The translations under genes were made by a program, and so were the position numbers. Of a stretch of DNA of 9,014 nucleotides, positions 1 through 9,014 are shown one piece after another. This DNA is from an uncultured Opitutia bacterium. GTDB lineage: Bacteria; Verrucomicrobiota; Verrucomicrobiia; Opitutales; Coraliomargaritaceae. The DNA lies in contig CALBPO010000115.1 of assembly GCA_937899295.1 (NCBI GenBank), forward strand, positions 1-9,014. Direction: 5' to 3'. Within the stretch, counting starts at the first letter, position 1. The number at the start of each line of letters is the position of its first letter. The notes under the pieces are model-generated. The model saw only the letters and a program-made list of their open reading frames with translations, was not told where the DNA came from and ran no database searches.

Positions 1-168
1 ATACTTAACGAAAAAGACAATTAGTTATGCAAGCGCATGGAAACCAAAATTTAGTCATTATTATTCAGATAGCCCAGATCAAATACTGCCATCGATGACT
101 CTGCTGTTGCCTCTCGCCTAAGGACTCCCCAATTTCTAGTTTTAAACAAGATATATCAGCAAATTAAA
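1..168. other. leading region without a convincing gene
   Basis: This stretch precedes the HisN-type gene and is AT-rich near its right end. Plus-strand frame 2 stays open from position 2 to a TAA at 119-121, about 39 codons. That could be the tail of a gene starting left of the window, but a chance opening of this length is not rare and I recognise no family in it. No tRNA-like fold or long inverted repeat is visible. No good SD sequence precedes the ATG at 169; the upstream bases are AT-rich (AGCAAATTAAA). Any promoter for the next gene should lie here, but I cannot point to a convincing -35/-10 pair. Confidence 0.4.
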
Positions 169-954
169 ATGTCAGAACTCACTCGCGCACAAAAAGACGA
201 ATTTATCAAATTCATCGCATATCTCTGCGATGAAGCGTCCAAAGAGATACTGCCTCACTACGGCCCTGACATAGAGATCGAGCGGAAATCTGACGCCACC
301 CCCGTCACTCTAGCGGATCAAAATGCGGAGAAACGCATCCGTGAGATCCTCGCCGAGCGTTACCCCGAGCATGGTATCATCGGTGAAGAATACGGCCGCG
401 AGCGAGACGATGCCGACTTTGTTTGGGTGCTCGATCCGGTCGATGGCACGAAGTCTTTCATTTCTGGAGTACCACTCTTTGCCACCTTGATTGCACTCAT
501 GCATAAAGGTCGCCCCGTAATCGGAGCGATCAACCAACCAATACTCGAGCAGATGGTGATCGGTGATTGCGAGACGACGACCCTAAACGGCAAGCCTGTG
601 TTTGGGCGCGACGCCTGCCCGCTCAGCGAAGCGACACTCAGTACGACGGATCCGATCCGTAAAACATTGTGGCAAAACGAGGCTGATTGGACGGCGCTCC
701 CACCGAAGACCGCTCTCTACCGTTCTTGGGGCGATGCGGGTGGCTACATTCTACTCTGCTCGGGCTTTATCGATATCATGTGTGATCCTATGATGGAGAT
801 CTGGGACTGCGCGGCCATCCTACCCTGCCTTGAAGGTGCGGGCTTCACAGTGACCGGCTGGAATGGAGGCGACGCCTTTGAAGAGCGTTCCATCATCGCA
901 GCCAAAGCACCGCTCCACGGCGAAGTCATGGCAACCCTTTACCCCGGCAAGTAA
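169..954 (+). CDS. hisN: HisN-type histidinol-phosphatase (inositol monophosphatase family)
   Basis: This is a 261-residue metal-dependent phosphatase of the inositol monophosphatase superfamily, most like the HisN branch that removes phosphate from L-histidinol phosphate, the penultimate part of histidine synthesis. The Mg-binding motifs are all present: SDATPVTLAD (41-50), GEE (72-74), DPVDGT (89-94) and WDCAA (212-216). RSWGDAGGY (185-193) resembles the GD-x-x-GY segment typical of HisN rather than of generic inositol phosphatases. Length is normal for the family and no export signal is seen, so it should be cytosolic. The start at 169 is the first ATG giving a full N-terminal helix; it lacks a clear SD. 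No other his gene is nearby, so the gene lies outside a his operon. SulP follows 32 bp later on the same strand and may be co-transcribed, with no obvious functional link. An alternative is an inositol-phosphatase or PAP-phosphatase activity; the superfamily is certain, the exact substrate less so. Confidence 0.86.
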   Translation: MSELTRAQKDEFIKFIAYLCDEASKEILPHYGPDIEIERKSDATPVTLADQNAEKRIREILAERYPEHGIIGEEYGRERDDADFVWVLDPVDGTKSFISGVPLFATLIALMHKGRPVIGAINQPILEQMVIGDCETTTLNGKPVFGRDACPLSEATLSTTDPIRKTLWQNEADWTALPPKTALYRSWGDAGGYILLCSGFIDIMCDPMMEIWDCAAILPCLEGAGFTVTGWNGGDAFEERSIIAAKAPLHGEVMATLYPGK

Positions 955-986
955 CCGTCCTAAAATAGCTTGTAGCTTCACACGCC

Positions 987-2798
987 ATGGCCGCATTTAT
1001 CCAACACTTTAAAAACGGGTTTTACGCTGCGAGAGAATACAATACACTCAAACTCATGCCCCTACGCCAGACACTGGCGGGCTACCAAGGCGGCTACTTA
1101 AGTGGCGACCTGCGCGCCGGGCTGAATGTCGCCCTACTCGCCTTTCCTCAAGGCATGGCCTACGCATTGATCGCTGGATTACCCATCCAATACGGTATCT
1201 ATGGCTCCGCCATCGCAGCGATGGTCGCCCCGATTTTTGCAAAAAGTCACTTCATCACAGTAGGACCAACCAATGCCACATCAGTCATGCTACTGAGCGC
1301 TTTCGCTAGCCTCGGAATCGTAGGGGTGGAAAAGCTCGGCATGGTGCCATTACTCATCCTGATGGTGGGGCTCTTTGTGGTGATCGGCGCCTACTTCAAA
1401 GTTGCCAATTTGGTGCAGTACATTTCCCGCTCGGTTATTACTGGCTACATCACTGCGGCCGCCTTACTGATAATCACAAATCAGATCCCAAAGTCCCTAG
1501 GGCTAGAGATGCTGGACAAGGGAGCCACTTTTTACCAATCAGCGGTTCTAATGTTCCAATCCATCCATACTACGCATTGGGCGACGCTTGCTGTCAGTCT
1601 TTCGACCGCCTTCCTATTCTTTTTCTTAAATAAAAAATTTAAAGCACTACCAAATGTCGCGATCTGCTTGGTCGCGATATCTGCGGCCACGGAGTTAATT
1701 CTTGGGCACGAGAGCGGGATCAAATTCCTAAGCGGAATCAATGCAGCAGATTGGTCATTTCAAACGCCGAAATTTTCGTTCAATAGCATTCAATTACTCG
1801 CCAGCCCCGCGCTCGCGATCGCTCTACTTTGTATCCTCGAGGGAATCTCAATAGGCAAATCGCTGGCAGCCAAAACAGGCGGCCGTCTCGATGCCAACCA
1901 GGAGATGTTCTCCATTGGTATGGCCAACATTGCTTGCGCTTTTTTCTCAGGAATGCCCGCTTCCGGTTCGCTAACTCGCTCAACACTCAGCACAACAAGC
2001 GGCGGACGCACCGTTCTGGCAAGCTGCATCAGTGGCCTTATTGTCTTTCTCGGTGCATTTGCTTTAGGGCCGCTCACACAATACATCCCACAATGCACAC
2101 TAGCTGTCCTAGTTATCGCAATCGGCATTTCGCTTATTAACAAACATGCCATCCGTGTTGTGACCTTTTCGACAAAGTCCGATGCAGCCGTCTTTGTCGC
2201 GACCTTTGTAAGTGGCCTTTTTATGCCACTCAACACTGCTATCTATGTGGGTGTGGGCACCTCGATCATCCTCTTCCTCAAAAAAGTGGCCCGCCCCGAG
2301 ATGGTTGAATACACTTTCAACAAAGAAGGCCAGCTGGCTGAGATGGATAAGCCCGAGCAGCGATCCGTTCCCCAAGTTTCTATCGTCCACGTGGAGGGCG
2401 AACTCTTTTTCGGCGCGGCGGATCTATTTCACGATCAAATGCGCCGCATATGCGAAGAGCCCAATCTCAAGATCGTCGTTCTTAAAATGCGCAACGCGCA
2501 TAATCTCGACGCCACGGGTGTGATGGCGCTCGAAGAGCTGTTGCTCTACATGGGTGAGAAAGGTCGCTATCTTATCTTGAGCGAGGTAAAGGCTGACATG
2601 ATACGCGTGCTGAAAAACTCAGGCATTTATGAACAGATTGAGGAACGCAATATCTTTACCGACGAACCGAGCAATCCCACGATGTCGACCGCCAAGGCAC
2701 TGAAACGGGCTAAAGATCATCTTGGGGACACGCAGGCCGATGTGTCGATTTACGTCGACCGCATGCGAGATAAAACGAAGCAAGGCGAGCGCCCTTAG
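987..2798 (+). CDS. SulP family anion permease with STAS domain
   Basis: This 603-residue inner-membrane transporter belongs to the SulP/SLC26 family, which moves sulfate, bicarbonate or other anions. Hydrophobic segments fill roughly residues 40-435. The family signature lies near 52-75 (AFPQGMAYALIAGLPIQYG), and the conserved CILEGISIGKSLAAKTGGR stretch covers 282-300. ASGSLTRS (325-332) is the usual small-residue loop. A cytoplasmic STAS domain follows at about 462-557, with NLDATG (506-511) at the position where regulatory STAS domains carry DSSG, so the phosphorylatable serine is replaced. Roughly 45 charged residues trail behind the STAS domain. The start at 987 gives a normal N-terminus, with no SD visible. 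The gene lies 32 bp after hisN and converges on metW. Sulfate uptake would fit the neighbouring methionine genes, but substrate cannot be read from sequence and marine SulP proteins are often bicarbonate transporters, so I give no symbol. Confidence 0.9.
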   Translation: MAAFIQHFKNGFYAAREYNTLKLMPLRQTLAGYQGGYLSGDLRAGLNVALLAFPQGMAYALIAGLPIQYGIYGSAIAAMVAPIFAKSHFITVGPTNATSVMLLSAFASLGIVGVEKLGMVPLLILMVGLFVVIGAYFKVANLVQYISRSVITGYITAAALLIITNQIPKSLGLEMLDKGATFYQSAVLMFQSIHTTHWATLAVSLSTAFLFFFLNKKFKALPNVAICLVAISAATELILGHESGIKFLSGINAADWSFQTPKFSFNSIQLLASPALAIALLCILEGISIGKSLAAKTGGRLDANQEMFSIGMANIACAFFSGMPASGSLTRSTLSTTSGGRTVLASCISGLIVFLGAFALGPLTQYIPQCTLAVLVIAIGISLINKHAIRVVTFSTKSDAAVFVATFVSGLFMPLNTAIYVGVGTSIILFLKKVARPEMVEYTFNKEGQLAEMDKPEQRSVPQVSIVHVEGELFFGAADLFHDQMRRICEEPNLKIVVLKMRNAHNLDATGVMALEELLLYMGEKGRYLILSEVKADMIRVLKNSGIYEQIEERNIFTDEPSNPTMSTAKALKRAKDHLGDTQADVSIYVDRMRDKTKQGERP

Positions 2799-2874
2799 TA
2801 GCGAAAGTGCTGTCCCTAGGCTGATCAAATCGACGCCGTATGTGGTCAGACCCAGTCGTTGCAAGCAGTCGCTA
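2799..2874. repeat. imperfect stem-loop in the convergent gap
   Basis: The gap between SulP and metW holds nested inverted sequences. TAGCGA (2799-2804) pairs with TCGCTA (2869-2874), and inside them GGCTGATC (2819-2826) pairs with GGTCAGACC (2844-2852) through eight base pairs, one of them G-T, with one bulged A. The loop of the inner stem is 17 nt. Neither strand has a T-run directly after the hairpin; a T-rich stretch on the plus strand appears only at about 2909-2921. It may help to separate the two converging transcripts, but it is not a textbook intrinsic terminator. The function is unproven. Confidence 0.35.
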
Positions 2875-2927
2875 TCGTAAAAACAGCCGATCACCTTTAT
2901 GTTTCTGCGTTTTGTCTTTTCTTACTA

Positions 2928-3539
2928 TCAATCAATAGAGGATAAATCATAGATCGCATATCCTGCCAATAGATTGGGAAAAACTGAGCATTCACTGCGC
3001 CAATCGCCAGCAAGGAATGCTCGGTTCTCAATAACCAGCTTACGGGCATTGCAATACTCCTCGAACTCGTTCACTGAAAACGAATTAGTCGGCTGAGTTT
3101 CGTACCAAGGTTTCGGATACACTTCGTTTATCACACGGCGGCCTTTGAAGAGTGTGCATAATCGATTCACCCAGAAGCCCTTATTGACAAAGCCAACGGT
3201 CACCTGTTTTCCAACTCGCAAGCCTTCTGCCAGTATTGTACCCGCATCGTCGAGCTGCTCCACAGTGCGACTAAAGATGACACGGTCGAATGCACCATCC
3301 GGAAAAGTCGCCAAAATAGTACGAGCATCACCCTGATAAGCAGGCACACTACGTTTCACACAGCTAAGAATCTTATCAAAATCGATATCCACACCCACGC
3401 CATAGATCGACTTCTTCTGCTTGAGATACTCCAGCAGCACACCGCGGCCACAGCCGAGGTCGAGCACGCGCTCGCCGGGCTCCACCCACTGGGCGATCAC
3501 CTGAAAATCAGCTAGGCGTTTTTTATCGATGGGACTCAT
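2928..3539 (-). CDS. metW: MetW, methionine biosynthesis methyltransferase-like protein
   Basis: This 203-residue cytosolic protein has a class I SAM-dependent methyltransferase fold and matches the MetW family, which is almost always found beside metX. The SAM-binding glycine loop DLGCGRG is at 27-33, the acidic residue ending the second strand is in GVDID (49-53), GDAR (70-73) follows, and FDRVIFSRTVEQL (84-96) is the MetW version of motif IV/V. MetW has been described as a partner that modulates MetX; its own methyl acceptor, if any, is unclear. The ATG at 3539 was chosen because the family begins with a short MSP-I-D-KKRLADF-like segment. A longer reading from 3644 would run back through metX in another frame and add 35 non-homologous residues. 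The start lies 4 nt after the metX stop with no SD, so translation is probably coupled to metX. Confidence 0.9.
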   Translation of the reverse strand: MSPIDKKRLADFQVIAQWVEPGERVLDLGCGRGVLLEYLKQKKSIYGVGVDIDFDKILSCVKRSVPAYQGDARTILATFPDGAFDRVIFSRTVEQLDDAGTILAEGLRVGKQVTVGFVNKGFWVNRLCTLFKGRRVINEVYPKPWYETQPTNSFSVNEFEEYCNARKLVIENRAFLAGDWRSECSVFPNLLAGYAIYDLSSID

Positions 3540-3543
3540 ACGA

Positions 3544-4683
3544 TTAGCGTGTAAGAAAACGATGGATGAGTTCGTAGAGCTTGGGCGCTCGAACAAGGAA
3601 GGAGTCATGGCCAAAGTCCATCGCGAGTTCGGCGTAGGTGGCATCTTTACCTAAGCGCAGGAGTGCCTCGACCACCTCACGATTGCCATGAGGCGGGTAG
3701 AGCCAGTCTGAAGTAAAACCGATAACTAGACCCGGGGACGTCACCGCACTGAGTGTCGCATCTAATGACTCCGGACTGTGCAAATCGAAACGATCCAGAG
3801 CTTTGGTCAGATAAAGATAAGTATTGGCATCGAATCGTGAAACGAAACTCGCGCCCTGATAGCGCAGGTAACTCTCCACTTCAAATTCGACATCGAAATG
3901 CTCTTTGGATTCGTCGCCGGAGCGTCTCTTGCGTCCAAATTTACTTTCCATTCCAACATCGGAAAGATAGGTAATGTGTGCCATCATCCGTGCCACGGCT
4001 AGACCTTGATCCGGGCCGTGCTCAGGATCGTAATCGCCCTGCTTCCATGCAGGGTCGGCAATAATGGCTTGGCGACCAGTGTCGTTAAAAGCAATGGCTT
4101 GCGCAGTATGACGCGCACCTGAGGCCAGCGCGATATAGCGTCCCAGTCGCTCGGGGAAGTCGATTGCCCATTGTAGCGTCTGCATGCCGCCCATACTGCC
4201 ACCGATGACTGCGTGGAGACGGTCGATACCGAAGTCCTCAATTAGAAGCGACTGCGCTTTTACCATATCTTGCACAGTGAGTTTTGGGAAATCGAGCTTA
4301 TAGGCCTTGCCCGTTTGCGGGTTAATCGAACCGGGACCAGTCGAACCCTGGCAGCCGCCGAGCACATTGGAACATATCACAAAATAGCGGGTGGTATCGA
4401 TGGGCTTTCCAGGACCAACCATAAAGTTCCACCAGCCTTGCTTGCGCTCTTCGATACCATGGACGCCAGCGCAGTGGTGATCGCCGCTGAGAGCATGACA
4501 GATCAGGATAGCGTTGTCCTTGGTCGCATTAAGATGTCCGTAAGTCTCATAGCGGAGTGTCAGCTCAGGGAGCTTGCCCCCCGAGACGAATTTGAACGGC
4601 TCTTTGGAAACAAAATCCTGATACTCGACGAATCCGACTTCTCCCTCCTCGGAAATGATCGGTGCTTGTTCGGAATCATTCAT
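3544..4683 (-). CDS. metX: MetX, homoserine O-acyltransferase
   Basis: This 379-residue alpha/beta-hydrolase enzyme transfers an acyl group from acyl-CoA to the hydroxyl of L-homoserine, the committed step of methionine synthesis, in the cytosol. The nucleophile elbow GGSMGGMQ (161-168) places the catalytic Ser at 163. FTSDWLYPP (323-331) supplies Asp326 and DFGHDSFL (356-363) supplies His359, completing the triad. NVLGGCQGSTGP (106-117) is the conserved oxyanion and substrate loop. Length is normal for the family and nothing is missing. The family includes acetyl-CoA and succinyl-CoA users and bacterial members beside metW have been shown to use either, so acetyl versus succinyl specificity is left open. 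The gene heads a metX-metW pair with a 4-nt gap. The start at 4683 has only a weak AAGA-like SD. The 130 bp before it probably hold the promoter. Confidence 0.94.
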   Translation of the reverse strand: MNDSEQAPIISEEGEVGFVEYQDFVSKEPFKFVSGGKLPELTLRYETYGHLNATKDNAILICHALSGDHHCAGVHGIEERKQGWWNFMVGPGKPIDTTRYFVICSNVLGGCQGSTGPGSINPQTGKAYKLDFPKLTVQDMVKAQSLLIEDFGIDRLHAVIGGSMGGMQTLQWAIDFPERLGRYIALASGARHTAQAIAFNDTGRQAIIADPAWKQGDYDPEHGPDQGLAVARMMAHITYLSDVGMESKFGRKRRSGDESKEHFDVEFEVESYLRYQGASFVSRFDANTYLYLTKALDRFDLHSPESLDATLSAVTSPGLVIGFTSDWLYPPHGNREVVEALLRLGKDATYAELAMDFGHDSFLVRAPKLYELIHRFLTR

Positions 4684-4813
4684 GAAAGTATTTTCTTACG
4701 CCAGATAGCGGTATAGTGAGTGCGAAAGCAAATCCAGTTAAAAAGGAGTCATGACTACTTCTGCCTCCATATATAACTTGCTTAGCATGATCCAATGGCG
4801 CCTCAAATCACCA
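4684..4813 (-). promoter_or_regulatory. probable metX promoter region with a 10-bp palindrome
   Basis: This gap lies between the protease stop and the metX start, both on the minus strand. Read on the minus strand it has TTGGAT, a 16-nt spacer and TATATG (within about 4767-4794) as a passable sigma-70-like pair. Just downstream, between that site and metX, is the perfect palindrome AGTCATGACT (4747-4756), a plausible operator. It is not the AGACGTCT-type met box of MetJ, and I see no SAM-riboswitch core. The promoter call rests on hexamer resemblance only. Confidence 0.35.
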
Positions 4814-6415
4814 CTACTTGGCTAAACGAAAGGTCACGGCCTTCAGATTGTTATCAAGGCGGATATCGTCTTCGACCTTCTTGGGCATGACGTGAGCGGC
4901 GAGGCTGAGCGTTGCGTCACTGTCCAGTGAAGGGATCTGAGTAAATACTTTACGCGTGGTCGTCTGTCCAGGTCCAAGAGAACCAAGGATGAAGCTGATG
5001 GGCTCGGCCTCACCAACGAAGATTTCGAGCTGAGCATCACTGAACCACTTGGTGCCACGATTCTGGACGGTGACTTCAATCGGCATAGTGTTACCAGGCT
5101 GGGCATCGGGCTGGAGGTAAATGTCGGCTAGCGCGACGTCGAGTAGATTAGGCGTGGCGCGCTCGCGTAAGCGATCCCAATCAACGAGGCCAGCACCGTA
5201 GACTGGGTCAGCGCTAGGCGGGCCTTGGTCGTTGAGGTAGCGCTTGAGGGCCTCTACCGCTTGTTTGGGCGACAATGCGTCATCACCAGAGATAAGCGAA
5301 GCGAGCGTACCGCTCACAAAGGGCGCGGCAGCAGAGGTGCCGGAAAATAGTGTGGTGCCTTTGTCTTCTTTAGCTGTTAGAACGCCGACGCCGGGTGCGG
5401 CAAAGTCAATTTCCTTTGATTGATTTGAAAAGAGCGCATGTTGCCCACCCGCATCCACTGCGGTCACGGCAAGCACTTGCGGATAGGCTGCTGGATATGG
5501 CATCCGGTTGTAGCCGTCATTACCCGCGGCAGCGACCATGATGACACCGCGATCGTCGGCATATTTGACGGCTTGGCGAAGCAGCGGCGCATCCTGGTAG
5601 ACACCGAGGCTCATATTAATAATCTGCACGCCGAGATCGACCGCTTGCACGATACCCTGGGCCACATCGTAGCTTTTGCCCAAGCCTTCATCATCCAGCA
5701 CACGAATAACAAATAGCTCGGCAGCAGGGGCAATGCCTTCGCTACCGGTTATAATTGAGGCAACCGAAGTGCCATGCGACGCGCCAGGCCCCGCGACGCC
5801 ACCACCAGCTAAATCGATGTGCGCGATATAAATATCATCAAACTGTGAGTGCGCTTGGATGCCCGAATCGAGAATGGCCACAATAACTCCTTCGCCCTGC
5901 CCGGCGACGATGCCACCTGTAATAGCACGGGCAGAGAGACCATAATGGCGAAGATTGGCGAGCGCTTCGGGATCAATTTCGACGGGCGGCAAGGGGCGCT
6001 CTATTCGGTAAGAGTAGCTAGCACGGGCAGCGGACTGAGCTAAATTTGCCTGGAGCAAAGCGCGCTCAGGAATACGCAGGGCGAGGAGCTCATCGATCTG
6101 TCCGAGTGGCGCGATACCCGCATTGGTGAGCGCCTTGAGGTAAGCGAGGTAGTCTTGGCGGCTGTCAAAGTGGAAAACTAGTTCGCCCGGGATTGCATTG
6201 CTTGGATAGGCGAGGTCTTGGATACCAATTTGATCATTCGACCTAACAGGGAAATCGGAATCCACTTGTGCCGCCAGGTCACTCGCCTCAAGTTCTATTT
6301 TGGCATCCGCCTCTGAAAAGAAAGATAAAGAGCGCTCAGTCGAAAGAAAAAAGCCGATCAGCGCCCCAAAAAGAGCTAGACCTAAGAGTATCCAAGGCAA
6401 ACGGTGGGATTTCAT
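4814..6415 (-). CDS. membrane-anchored subtilisin-like serine protease (S8) with CARDB-like domain
   Basis: This 533-residue exported protease has all catalytic residues of the S8 subtilase family: Asp183 in VAILDSGI, His214 in SHGTSVAS, oxyanion Asn299 in AAAGND and nucleophile Ser361 in FSGTSAAAPF. The N-terminus (MKSHR, then a hydrophobic stretch at about 7-24) is a signal peptide or uncleaved anchor; no lipobox cysteine is seen. Residues about 72-140 (starting PGELVFHFDS) look like the inhibitory propeptide of fervidolysin-type subtilases. The peptidase domain spans about 172-415. Residues about 424-531 form a beta-rich CARDB-like domain, with VTVQNRGT (448-455), LGSLGPGQT (477-485) and the closing DNN (521-523), a cell-adhesion or substrate-presenting module. 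The likely place of action is the periplasm or cell surface. It precedes metX by 130 bp on the same strand without obvious functional connection. The start at 6415 has a weak AAGAGA SD. The substrate is unknown. Confidence 0.9.
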   Translation of the reverse strand: MKSHRLPWILLGLALFGALIGFFLSTERSLSFFSEADAKIELEASDLAAQVDSDFPVRSNDQIGIQDLAYPSNAIPGELVFHFDSRQDYLAYLKALTNAGIAPLGQIDELLALRIPERALLQANLAQSAARASYSYRIERPLPPVEIDPEALANLRHYGLSARAITGGIVAGQGEGVIVAILDSGIQAHSQFDDIYIAHIDLAGGGVAGPGASHGTSVASIITGSEGIAPAAELFVIRVLDDEGLGKSYDVAQGIVQAVDLGVQIINMSLGVYQDAPLLRQAVKYADDRGVIMVAAAGNDGYNRMPYPAAYPQVLAVTAVDAGGQHALFSNQSKEIDFAAPGVGVLTAKEDKGTTLFSGTSAAAPFVSGTLASLISGDDALSPKQAVEALKRYLNDQGPPSADPVYGAGLVDWDRLRERATPNLLDVALADIYLQPDAQPGNTMPIEVTVQNRGTKWFSDAQLEIFVGEAEPISFILGSLGPGQTTTRKVFTQIPSLDSDATLSLAAHVMPKKVEDDIRLDNNLKAVTFRLAK

Positions 6416-6474
6416 GGTCTCTTTTTACTAGACTCCATCCCGAGAAAGACAACCGTCTTTATACATAACAAAAG
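6416..6474. promoter_or_regulatory. divergent promoter gap with shared AT-rich core
   Basis: Only 59 bp separate the minus-strand protease from the plus-strand GATase-lipB-lipA genes, so promoters for both directions are expected here or inside the flanking genes. The stretch TTTATACATAAC (about 6458-6469) offers TATACA on the plus strand and TATAAA on the minus strand as -10-like hexamers. No convincing -35 box accompanies either. The plus-strand -10 candidate is very close to the ATG at 6475, implying a nearly leaderless message if it is real. Confidence 0.25.
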
Positions 6475-6759
6475 ATGCGAATCTTATGCCTACAACATTT
6501 ATCGTTTGAGGAGCCTGCCGCACTGGCAGACTGGGCACAAACCCGTGGGCACCCTCTCCGTAGCCACCCGCTCTACGAGGACGAGGTACTGCCAAGCATC
6601 GAAGACTTCGACTGCCTTTTTATCATGGGTGGCCCCATGAATATCTACGAACAGGCCAAGTATTCTTGGCTTGCACCAGAAAAGGCGCTCATCCGCGAGG
6701 CGATTGCGTGGGGCAAATACGTCATCGGTATCTGCCTCGGAGGACAACTGATCGTATGA
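6475..6759 (+). pseudogene. truncated class I glutamine amidotransferase, N-terminal part only
   Basis: This 94-residue reading frame begins like a stand-alone type 1 glutamine amidotransferase: MRILCLQH at the start, then FIMGGPMNIYE (49-59), SWLAPEK (64-70), and the nucleophile elbow GICLGGQL (85-92) with Cys87. The family is usually about 230-240 residues. Here the frame stops three residues after the elbow, so the half holding the catalytic His and Glu is missing. The frame after the TGA meets another stop within about nine codons and shows no amidotransferase sequence, so this is not a simple frameshift. The end coincides with the start of lipB, giving an ATGA overlap. It cannot be an active amidotransferase alone. 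It is either a deletion relic or a short frame kept as a translated leader for lipB. The upstream half is clean, with no internal stops, so the event is recent or the frame is under selection. Confidence 0.75.
6739..6744 (+). promoter_or_regulatory. lipB ribosome binding site inside the GATase relic
   Basis: GGAGGA is the best SD sequence in the window. It lies 11-12 nt before the lipB ATG at 6756, a little far but usable. It overlaps the glycine codons of the nucleophile elbow of the truncated amidotransferase, so coding sequence of the relic supplies the lipB ribosome binding site. With the ATGA overlap this predicts translational coupling. It also supports 6756, not 6666, as the lipB start. 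Confidence 0.5.
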
Positions 6760-7415
6760 CTAATTCGATCACAGAAATCGAAGTAATCGACTGGGAGCAA
6801 ACCGACTACGCCGACGCTTTCGAGCAGCAAAAGTTACGCGTCGAACAACGTCGAACGAGCGAGTGCGGCGACGCTCTTATTTTCACCGAGCACACACCTG
6901 TCTACACCATGGGCATGCGCAAAGACTCAGAACAGCACCTACTTTGGACTGAAGCCGAGTGTTCCCGGCAGGGCATCGCTGTCCTCAAATCAAACCGAGG
7001 GGGCGACATCACCTATCACGGACCCGGTCAAATCGTAGGCTACCCCATCCTCTCGCTCGCGCACCGCAAAGATCTCCATGCCTACCTGCGCGATCTCGAA
7101 GAGGTGGTCATCCGCACCCTCGCCACTTACGGCTTGGCCGCCGCCCGCCGCAAAGCTCACACTGGTATCTGGCTAAACAATGAACGGAAGATCTGCGCCA
7201 TCGGCGTAGCCGTGCGCTCATGGATCACCTACCACGGCTTCGCACTCAACGTTTGCCCTGACATGGCACACTTTGATGGTATTGTGCCCTGTGGGATTAG
7301 TGACGGTAGCGTGACCTCACTTACTAATGAGCTAGACGAGGCCGTCGACATAGCAGAGCTAAAAGCGCGATTAGCAGTTGAATTTAAGCAAGTTTTTAGG
7401 AACAGTCCTCAATAA
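6756..7415 (+). CDS. lipB: LipB, octanoyl-ACP:protein N-octanoyltransferase
   Basis: LipB moves the octanoyl chain from acyl carrier protein to a lysine of lipoyl-domain proteins such as the pyruvate and 2-oxoglutarate dehydrogenase E2 subunits and GcvH, in the cytosol. The 219-residue protein has the family signature RGGDITYHGPGQIVGYP (81-97), the conserved Lys145 in ERKICAIGV and the acyl-thioester Cys179 in GIVPCGIS. Length is normal for the family. The ATG at 6756 was chosen because the LipB homology begins at ITEIEVIDW. A longer frame from 6666 would read through the amidotransferase relic in the wrong frame. The stop is 1 nt from the lipA ATG, so the two genes form a tight operon supplying consecutive steps. 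It overlaps the relic by 4 nt. Confidence 0.96.
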   Translation: MTNSITEIEVIDWEQTDYADAFEQQKLRVEQRRTSECGDALIFTEHTPVYTMGMRKDSEQHLLWTEAECSRQGIAVLKSNRGGDITYHGPGQIVGYPILSLAHRKDLHAYLRDLEEVVIRTLATYGLAAARRKAHTGIWLNNERKICAIGVAVRSWITYHGFALNVCPDMAHFDGIVPCGISDGSVTSLTNELDEAVDIAELKARLAVEFKQVFRNSPQ

Positions 7416-7416
7416 G

Positions 7417-8337
7417 ATGGATATGCGAAAACCAGATTGGCTCCGAGCCAAACTACCCACCAGCCCTGAATATAAGGCCGTGCGAGAGATCGTCGACAAT
7501 AACGATCTGCATACCGTCTGTAAGAGTGCCCAATGTCCTAACATGGGCGAATGCTGGTCGCGAGGGACAGCCACCGTCATGATTCTGGGTAACATTTGTA
7601 CTCGTTCCTGCACCTTTTGCGCTATCCAAACTGGTCGACCGACCGAACTCGATATTGGTGAACCCGCCCGCGTGGCCGAATCCATAGCCCGAATGAAGCT
7701 CAAGCACGCCGTGATCACTTCCGTCGCCCGCGACGATTTGAAAGACGGCGGGGCCTCCGTTTGGGCAGCCACCATCCGCGCCGTTCACCACCGCATGCCC
7801 GAATGCGCCGTTGAAGTGCTCACGGCGGACTTCCGCGGCCAACAGGAATACCTCGACCTGGTGCTCGACGCCTGCCCCGATATTTTCAACCACAACCTCG
7901 AAACGGTCAAACGCCTCCAACGTCCGATCCGTAAGACCGCACGCTACGACCGCTCGCTCTGGGTATTGGAGCACGCCAAATCGCGCGGTTTCATAACCAA
8001 GTCCGGCATCATGCTCGGCATAGGCGAAAAGGAACAGGAGATTGAGGAAGTGCTTAACGACATGGTCAAGGTCGGCGTCGATGTGCTCACTATTGGTCAG
8101 TATTTACAACCCTCCAAACAGCACGCCACGATCGACCGCTGGGTCACCCCCGAGGAATTTGCACATTGGAAAGAATACGCATTAGAGATCGGCTTCGGTG
8201 CCTGCGAGTCCGGCCCAATGATCCGCTCTTCCTACCACGCCGAAGAGCAGTCCGACATGTTCGACGTCCGCGCCCGCCGCCGCAAAATGCTCGCCGAGCA
8301 AGCCGAACAAAAAAAAGAAGCACTGGCTAAAGTGTAA
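7417..8337 (+). CDS. lipA: LipA, lipoyl synthase (radical SAM)
   Basis: LipA inserts two sulfur atoms at C6 and C8 of the protein-bound octanoyl chain made by LipB. In this 306-residue protein the auxiliary [4Fe-4S] cluster ligands are Cys35, Cys40 and Cys46 (CKSAQCPNMGEC), with the C-terminal serine ligand in RSSYHA (270-275). The radical SAM cluster ligands are Cys61, Cys65 and Cys68 (CTRSCTFC). TSVARDDLKDGG (101-112) and FNHNLETV (157-164) are family motifs. The start is the ATG at 7417, 1 nt after the lipB stop. The sequence from a TTG at 7378 would overlap lipB and adds no family residues. A further in-frame ATG at 7423 is possible. AGGAA at 7398-7402 is a weak, distant SD, so coupling to lipB is likely. 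The tail after residue 280 is charged and Lys/Glu-rich, as in many LipA proteins. Confidence 0.97.
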   Translation: MDMRKPDWLRAKLPTSPEYKAVREIVDNNDLHTVCKSAQCPNMGECWSRGTATVMILGNICTRSCTFCAIQTGRPTELDIGEPARVAESIARMKLKHAVITSVARDDLKDGGASVWAATIRAVHHRMPECAVEVLTADFRGQQEYLDLVLDACPDIFNHNLETVKRLQRPIRKTARYDRSLWVLEHAKSRGFITKSGIMLGIGEKEQEIEEVLNDMVKVGVDVLTIGQYLQPSKQHATIDRWVTPEEFAHWKEYALEIGFGACESGPMIRSSYHAEEQSDMFDVRARRRKMLAEQAEQKKEALAKV

Positions 8338-8449
8338 AATTTCATCAACAAAGCTAGAAACAAGTTCGTGAGGCGTTGCTTGCTTCAGCACACACTATGC
8401 GCATTCTAAATTCAAAGCTCTCGGAAATAATTACCCGCTAGACCTAAAG
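8338..8449. other. gap between lipA and the first attC-like site
   Basis: These 112 bp hold no ORF of note, no clear terminator hairpin and no integrase remnant. I looked for a GTTRRRY core site that would mark an attI or the start of an earlier cassette. The only GTT triplets start GTTCGTG (8364-8370) and GTTGCTT (8375-8381), and neither fits. AGGCGTTGC (8371-8379) recurs in inverted orientation as GCAACGCCT (8470-8478) inside the attC loop, which may be chance or a trace of an older recombination site. Confidence 0.4.
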
Positions 8450-8506
8450 ACATAACCAGTCGCTCCTGGGCAACGCCTAACGGCACGCCAGAGCTCTACG
8501 TTAGCT
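8450..8506 (+). repeat. attC-like integron recombination site
   Basis: This 57-nt element has the parts of an integron attC in order. ACATAAC (8450-8456) serves as R''. A 5-nt spacer (8457-8461) follows. L'' is GCTCCTGG (8462-8469), L' is CCAGAGC (8488-8494), then comes a 5-nt spacer (8495-8499) and R' GTTAGCT (8500-8506). L'' pairs with L' over seven base pairs with one extra C in L'', the single unpaired base that marks attC bottom-strand recognition in known sites such as that of aadA1. The spacers are non-complementary, as expected of the unpaired central spacer. The terminal part contains GCC-TAAC-GGC (8475-8484), a small extra hairpin. Cleavage would fall between G8500 and T8501. R' departs from GTTRRRY at one position and R'' from RYYYAAC at one position, both tolerated in chromosomal arrays. 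No integrase is visible to confirm use. Confidence 0.75.
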
Positions 8507-8523
8507 AAAAATGTGATCTTACT

Positions 8524-9000
8524 ATGAGTAAGTTCTTTTTGTTATTTTTCTGTATTCTGTTTGGAGTACTTGAGGCGAAGACTCTTAATCGTAACCCAAC
8601 ATTCGAAGATGGAAAAAAGGGCTGGTTTGGAAAGATAGAAGTCGTCGAGGTTATTGTAGACGGGAAAAAAGAGTCAGTATTACGAGTTACTCCTGATATC
8701 ATTGGAGATAAAAGCTTTGCCCCCAACTCTTTTAAAAGAAGCAATTACAGTGAACTGAAGGTTTCTTTTACTTACCGAGCGGCGGGATTGATAATGGGCG
8801 ACCTCAAGATTCAGGTTTCTGCTCAATCGCCTGATATGATAAAAGAATATAAAATAAGACTCGAGTCATCAAGAGAATGGGTGACTGTTACTAGAAAGTT
8901 GTCGGGGTTTGAATGGCATGATCGAATTTCGGTAAGGTTCTTTTTTGAGGACTTTGCTGCAGGAGAGATCCAATTTAAGGAGATCATTATTGGACACTGA
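8524..9000 (+). CDS. cassette-encoded exported protein, carbohydrate-binding-like beta-sandwich
   Basis: This 158-residue protein is of unknown function. MSKFFLLFFCILFGVLEA (1-18) looks like a signal peptide with a probable cut after Ala18; Cys10 is not in a lipobox. The mature part begins LNRNPTFEDGKKGW (21-34), the opening usual in CBM4/9-type and other galactose-binding-like jelly-roll domains. It continues with alternating beta-strands (LKVSFTYRA at 78-86, LKIQVSA at 94-100, EWVTVTRKL at 118-126, ISVRFFFED at 135-143) and closes with GEIQFKEIIIG (147-157), where such domains usually end GxIxFDDI. A single such domain fills the protein. Three hand-counted 60-nt stretches have about 38-42% GC, against 57% in one lipA stretch, which points to a separate origin. 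The start at 8524 has no SD; a minimal ATG-TGA frame lies at 8511-8516. Binding of polysaccharide is inferred from fold resemblance only. Confidence 0.7.
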   Translation: MSKFFLLFFCILFGVLEAKTLNRNPTFEDGKKGWFGKIEVVEVIVDGKKESVLRVTPDIIGDKSFAPNSFKRSNYSELKVSFTYRAAGLIMGDLKIQVSAQSPDMIKEYKIRLESSREWVTVTRKLSGFEWHDRISVRFFFEDFAAGEIQFKEIIIGH

Positions 9001-9003
9001 AAG

Positions 9004-9014
9004 AGCTAACCAGT
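9004..9014 (+). repeat. left end of a second attC-like site, truncated by the window
   Basis: AGCTAAC followed by CAGT begins 3 nt after the cassette stop codon. It repeats the TAACCAGT of the first attC (8453-8460) exactly, 554 bp apart. It is also the reverse complement of the cassette's opening core GTTAGCT. Only the R'' box and four spacer bases are inside the window, so L'', L' and R' cannot be checked. Confidence 0.6.

Follow-up and report, generated by a model that had tools for sequence, protein, structure and literature searches.

At its right end the contig examined here has a complete attC site, a cassette gene and, probably, the beginning of a second attC. These elements are oriented away from the neighbouring lipA gene, and we consider it likely (probability roughly 0.7) that they form a CALIN lodged behind lipA. 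The term CALIN is used in the literature for a cluster of attC sites without an integron integrase (PMC9024848, PMC8618304, PMC9668308). The stretch of DNA analysed (the window, 9,014 nt) is the entire contig C115, and the sequence stops at position 9014. The assembly to which it belongs comprises 1.69 Mb in 415 contigs and is 83% complete.

Upstream of the array the window carries ordinary chromosomal genes: an inositol monophosphatase family gene, a SulP transporter with a STAS domain, metW, an alpha/beta hydrolase (Pfam: Abhydrolase_1) that adjoins metW and was taken for homoserine acetyltransferase, a subtilase, a short GATase, lipB and lipA. The last of these (7414-8337, + strand; Radical_SAM and LIAS_N, the latter just under its cut-off) is the left neighbour of the array and its chromosomal anchor outside the cassette cluster. 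In a match list that may omit records of the genome's own assembly, the LipA protein was 96-97% identical to five environmental records of Opitutia and Puniceicoccaceae and 89% identical to that of Coraliomargarita sp. SDUM461004. Since the nearest records belong to these groups, the host is assigned by sequence to Verrucomicrobiota, class Opitutia, near Coraliomargarita, and the suggestion of the earlier note, which had been made from the letters alone, that the chromosome is non-proteobacterial was borne out. As a side observation, a 94-aa ORF at 6475-6759, which stops at the lipB start, looks truncated: its match to a glutamine amidotransferase model of 239 positions is confined to the first 97. 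Several sister genomes align through this ORF.

The arms of an attC site, an imperfect palindrome, are named R'', L'', L' and R', and an extrahelical base in L'' is one of its traits. All four arms were found in a 57-nt site at 8450-8506 (+ strand): R'' (ACATAAC, 8450-8456), followed by the spacer CAGTC; L'' (GCTCCTGG, 8462-8469) and the centre of the site (8470-8487); L' (CCAGAGC, 8488-8494), followed by the spacer TCTAC; and R' (GTTAGCT, 8500-8506), of which TTAGCT (8501-8506) is part of the next cassette. L'' and L' pair at 7/7 positions after one C of L'' (8465 or 8466) is omitted, and the model built from sites of the same family (R2, below) has an unpaired column at the same position. 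Every element of the site, including the extra C in L'', thus lies where the earlier note had placed it. The R' sequence agrees with the attC end motif GTTRRRY, as given in PMC10127599, except for a C at the sixth base.

Two covariance models, R1 and R2, were built in this analysis from attC-like sites near integron integrases of relatives, and the window was part of neither. R1 contains 12 attC sites (of 16 first aligned), all taken from two genomes that belong to a different family within the order, and R2 contains 9 of 19 aligned sites of the same family, which were chosen for the extra base that the window has after L'', so that a high score of the window is favoured. The covariance-model search that the earlier note had proposed as a check gave its best match in the window at exactly 8450-8506 with both R1 (20.3 bits, E 0.0011; next, 0.74) and R2 (57.8 bits, E 4.3e-14; next, 7.2 bits). 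A search of the window with Rfam returned no attC and only a sub-threshold leader match elsewhere. The R1 match is weak at larger scale (E 0.025 in 211 kb), and when R1 was run over 43 whole genomes, the site at 8450 was not among the matches with E of 0.1 or less. With R2, no second attC was found in the genome's own assembly, where the next match scored 14.9 bits (E 3.7). As a background, 97 stretches obtained from a 14-mer scan of viral contigs were used, few of which scored as attC; the best R2 score in these 851 kb of IMG/VR stretches was 24.6 bits, although they had been chosen for an attC-like 14-mer and are if anything enriched for attC. Weak matches (21-25 bits) were seen in five IMG/VR contigs (L027 6147-6596, L039 218-667, L058 2401-2850, L049 3966-4025 and L053 8016-8075), three of which have two matches about 300 nt apart in a cassette-like arrangement. 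When the genome itself was scanned with patterns for additional attC halves, the counts were close to those of the control (6 + 6 vs 6 + 2; 13 + 16 vs 10 + 16), and none of the seven loci inspected, six of them with the match displayed, was attC-shaped by eye.

The structure of the site was also assessed in an alignment of same-family sites (A8: 71 rows, 57 distinct, the window's site included), which was fitted to the structure, a step that favours pairing. Over the 57 distinct sites the L''/L' helix was paired in 98.7% of cells, with two-sided changes at all 7 pairs, and when the partners were shifted by 1 to 3 columns, only 31.6-43.3% of the whole structure stayed paired, compared with 78.6% in register. 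The number of further pair types did not exceed that in shuffles (36 vs 36.9). Folding of the bottom strand of 8450-8506 as single-stranded DNA, the other check named in the earlier note, bore out the site only in part: R''/R' and most of L''/L' paired, but the register was partly shifted and the fold was no more stable than shuffles (z -0.24, or -0.63 with slightly more flank). The same test on nine attC sites of relatives gave z values from +1.05 to -5.01, so fold energy says little as a test for attC and was dropped as a criterion because it was uninformative. Taken by themselves, this fold energy and the weakness of R1 at genome scale would suit a chance palindrome beside an unrelated foreign ORF; that reading is hardly credible in view of the 57.8 bits of the R2 match, against next-best scores of 7.2 in the window, 14.9 in the genome and 24.6 in the 851-kb IMG/VR background, and of an exact core complement across the ORF. 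The computation confirms 8450-8506 as a predicted attC recombination site.

The ORF in question, the cassette gene (8524-9000, + strand), begins 17 nt after the attC; its stop codon lies at 8998-9000, and 3 nt separate it from the next R''. Its GC content is 39.2% vs 52.7% for positions 1-8337, in accordance with the compositional difference that had been claimed for it. The R'' that follows, AGCTAAC (9004-9010), together with CAGT makes up the putative start of the cassette's own attC (9004-9014, + strand), which is cut by the contig end. These 11 nt are too short for scoring with an attC model. Nevertheless, a prediction can be made for them: in an array, the following cassette contributes the right half of each site's core, and therefore R' should match the R'' of the following site and not its own. 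AGCTAAC and the R' at 8500-8506, GTTAGCT, are exact reverse complements (7/7), while the site's own R'', ACATAAC, is not fully complementary to this R'. In the arrays of relatives the four outer core bases matched in 72 of 77 neighbouring pairs, compared with 12.2% when shuffled; this count covers pairs less than 2500 nt apart at nine loci, with L140, L141, L142, L147, L150, L153, L155 and L156 left out. The five misses consist of three gaps of 1.7-2.2 kb, one pair with 3/4 bases and one match that begins a base early. The full 7-base rule held in 19 of 29 close pairs at same-family loci, a set whose misses include undetected intervening sites and matches trimmed by a base. The same cassette rule predicts low pairing between R'' and R' within a site, and over the 57 distinct sites aligned from the family only 62.9% of the cells of this helix were paired. 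The exact 7/7 complement makes the piece at 9004 credible as an attC start, and 9004-9014 is likely the start of a second attC. The model match at 8450-8506 and the core complement rule together indicate that the succession of attC, cassette and attC start is real. The claim that a second copy of the left end follows 3 nt after the stop of the ORF was in this way supported, and a call made by eye from raw sequence was borne out by computation, including a cassette rule whose test had formed no part of that claim. The ORF is thus packed tightly between the two sites, with an R'' complementary to the left end of the cassette, and the cassette's own attC is incomplete.

The cassette gene encodes an uncharacterised protein of 158 aa without a Pfam or NCBIfam family. 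Its N-terminus reads like a signal peptide (predicted), and the structure prediction was mostly beta and of low confidence (mean pLDDT 52.1). Few relatives exist: 7 matching clusters were found among 5.8 billion proteins (8 with a profile), one of which is apparently the window's own and another a hypothetical protein of Coraliomargarita sp. W4R53 (84%), and no relative was found in 371 other genomes of the order. Such a narrow and patchy spread fits a cassette gene. One relative of the protein (P0001) had no match in phage or plasmid records and none by sequence in the Protein Data Bank, and no protein related to the cassette protein is encoded in any of 33 viral stretches picked up with peptide patterns. 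A PHROG match at E 0.0083, to which no function is attached, was too weak to use. Around the cassette no promoter or terminator scored above shuffles.

The gap between lipA and the attC (8338-8449, 112 nt) was compared with the same region of sister genomes. In four of them (L183, L184, L185 and L205) the neighbourhood is conserved and a convergent gene, taken for an exosortase gene, stands some 150-200 nt behind lipA; none of these four gaps contains an attC match. In L185 the gene was identified as an exosortase both by Pfam (Exosortase_EpsH, E 5e-40) and by the NCBIfam exosortase/archaeosortase signature, which scored over its cut-off. By blastn the window aligns up to 8349 with four of five sisters and up to 8336 with L184, and a loose resemblance to the 3' region of lipA in the sisters continues to about 8400. 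Because the sisters keep the lipA neighbourhood without an attC, the array was most likely gained in the genome's own lineage. An assembly chimera, in which the lipA contig of one organism was fused within 8350-8449 to the cassette array of another, would also give sisters of 83-95% DNA identity that lack the array, and the metagenome-like, fragmented assembly and the shift in composition at the array would agree with it. The loose resemblance, however, runs past the blastn break at 8349, and the attC is of the type of the same family, so a fusion of this kind appears quite improbable. In the sister L186 (ALOHA_ZT_54) the corresponding gap behind lipA is filled, at approximately 3930-5214, with different DNA of roughly 1.1-1.3 kb, which includes a 241-aa ORF that has no Pfam family and a short stretch resembling the lipA tail; a cassette at this place was supported by neither R1 nor R2.

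The question of whether the array belongs to a complete integron depends on the integrase. In a same-family integron of the order (G090, L138), the integrase lies at 14203-15141 on the + strand and the attC sites on the - strand from 13278 down, so that the array reads away from the integrase and the R'' side is nearest to it. In the window the reading direction of the array puts the integrase side at lipA, 112 nt off with no gene between, and lipA stands in an ordinary chromosomal neighbourhood; the whole 8.4 kb to the left of the array are without an integrase. In the assembly the integron-integrase profile met only two tyrosine recombinases, both below its cut-off, which NCBIfam models class as XerD (over the cut-off) and XerC-like (just under); no integrase exceeded the TIGR02249 cut-off in this 83% complete assembly of 415 contigs. 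An intI gene beside the array, which together with attI marks a complete integron, is found neither in the window nor, above the cut-off, in the assembly. The attC, the cassette and the second attC start of the proposed integron array beside lipA hold, but the word integron claims more than the evidence so far supports. As no integrase gene lies on the side where integrons carry one, a stray cassette cluster is the likely interpretation.

The distribution of integrases among relatives was considered as well. Among 177 genomes sampled from the order, 38 have an integrase over the cut-off. Within the genus (14 genomes: G000, G033, G049, G065 and G195-G204), seven have attC matches at E up to 0.01, in counts that are lower bounds because only part of the candidates was scored, and the six with an integrase over the cut-off are these seven minus the genome's own. 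Four genomes of 3.1-4.7 Mb, all with an integrase, have at least 21 to 38 attC matches each; G198 (3.2 Mb) has an integrase and three matches, and G195 (2.0 Mb) has an integrase and one. The seven genomes of 1.2-1.9 Mb that had no attC match include several incomplete ones. Matches and integrases thus co-occur in the genus and mostly track genome size. The genome studied here is the exception, with an attC and without an integrase, which is either truly absent or missed by the incomplete assembly.

That the other six attC-positive genomes of the genus all carry an integrase over the cut-off speaks against a CALIN and for a fragment of a complete sedentary integron, whose integrase would lie on an unassembled or unbinned contig, the array having been moved or inverted with respect to it. 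The integrase may be missing from the data because the assembly is 83% complete and split into 415 contigs; arrays break assemblies, and the contigs of several relatives end soon past the 5' side of the integrase. On the other hand, the integrase side is occupied by lipA in conserved gene order, so that this end, at least, is no normal integron head, and no partial integrase was met beyond the XerC/XerD-type matches. We regard a sedentary integron as unlikely, and the CALIN remains our preferred interpretation.

It has been reported that CALINs can originate by off-target insertion, by loss of the integrase or by rearrangement (PMC8618304), and that their cassettes can be mobilised by an integrase acting in trans (PMC9668308). 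For the array behind lipA, the cassettes would have come from an integron of the Coraliomargarita group, through an integron integrase that acts from elsewhere in the cell or has since been lost. The bottom strand of the attC would be folded out, the integrase would cut beside the G of R', and the resulting cassette circle would be inserted at a different attC or, as an off-target event, at a GTT/GAT site of the chromosome. TTATGT, the expected left end of the first cassette, is absent between lipA and 8450; the first cassette, to which the attC at 8450 would belong, is for this reason taken to have lost its gene or never to have had one. The gene of the second cassette would encode a small exported protein, as predicted.

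The array resembles a CALIN in that attC sequences and a cassette gene stand in a chromosome with no integrase in the 8.4 kb to their left; the right side lies past the contig end. By default IntegronFinder 2.0 asks for two attC sites in a CALIN (PMC9024848); here one full site and 11 nt of a second are present, and unlike in a typical CALIN the number of two is not reached since the contig ends there. With the sedentary chromosomal integrons of the same family (G090, L138 and L139) it shares the sequence and structure type of the attC and the core complement rule, whereas their arrays adjoin an integrase over the TIGR02249 cut-off and none was seen in the window. Single cassettes at secondary sites, as described in PMC2426708 and PMC10127599, are similar in that cassette DNA lies off the integrase platform in an intergenic gap. 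Insertion of a single cassette, however, would leave no complete attC to the left of the gene, and here one is present.

The array itself adds no new principle; the gene-capture system of which it is an unremarkable part is common among relatives with larger genomes. The earlier note had held an array in a non-proteobacterial chromosome to be worth describing; the array is real, but the surprise is smaller, since Verrucomicrobiota are already named among integron-bearing phyla (PMC8618304) and integrases occur in the order as counted above. Among open-licence papers, none titled on integrons of Coraliomargarita or Opitutia was found. What the array contributes is an instance of cassette DNA in a small genome, at a place where its close sisters have none, in a genus whose rich arrays sit in the four larger genomes. 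If the integrase is truly absent, the small genomes of the genus would receive cassettes from relatives that possess full integrons.

Two features of the integrons of the order, the N-terminal part of the integrase and the cassettes with a GAT core, are the points that merit the time of specialists. At 17 of 20 integron integrase loci (L118-L137), the frame's first ATG/GTG precedes the integrase match by 80 residues or more, and this N-terminal part shows a shared pattern in the alignment. Of four such parts scanned alone, two matched Phage_int_SAM_4 below the cut-off (E 0.0034 and 0.029) and two gave no usable match; the weak matches make a second SAM-like domain possible. We offer only tentatively the wider idea that the fragment comes from a distinct Opitutia integron branch, which would have integrases with a second, N-terminal SAM-like DNA-binding domain that handle GTT and GAT cassettes as two lasting classes, and in which streamlined marine members of the genus would have lost the integrase and yet go on receiving its cassettes, here behind lipA.

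Laxity at the second core base is already known (PMC10127599), and no paper titled on stable GAT-core cassettes was found among open-licence papers. In the 57 distinct same-family sites of alignment A8, the R' core was CGTT in 31, CGAT in 25 and another sequence in 1. Twelve neighbouring pairs have a first R' that starts with GAT; in 10 of them the matching ATC comes next, 8 of these at 7/7 bases. Because the complement is kept in 10 of the 12, cassettes with a GAT core appear to persist as a class of their own and not to be products of decay. GAT-core sites were also observed at the loci L144 and L145.
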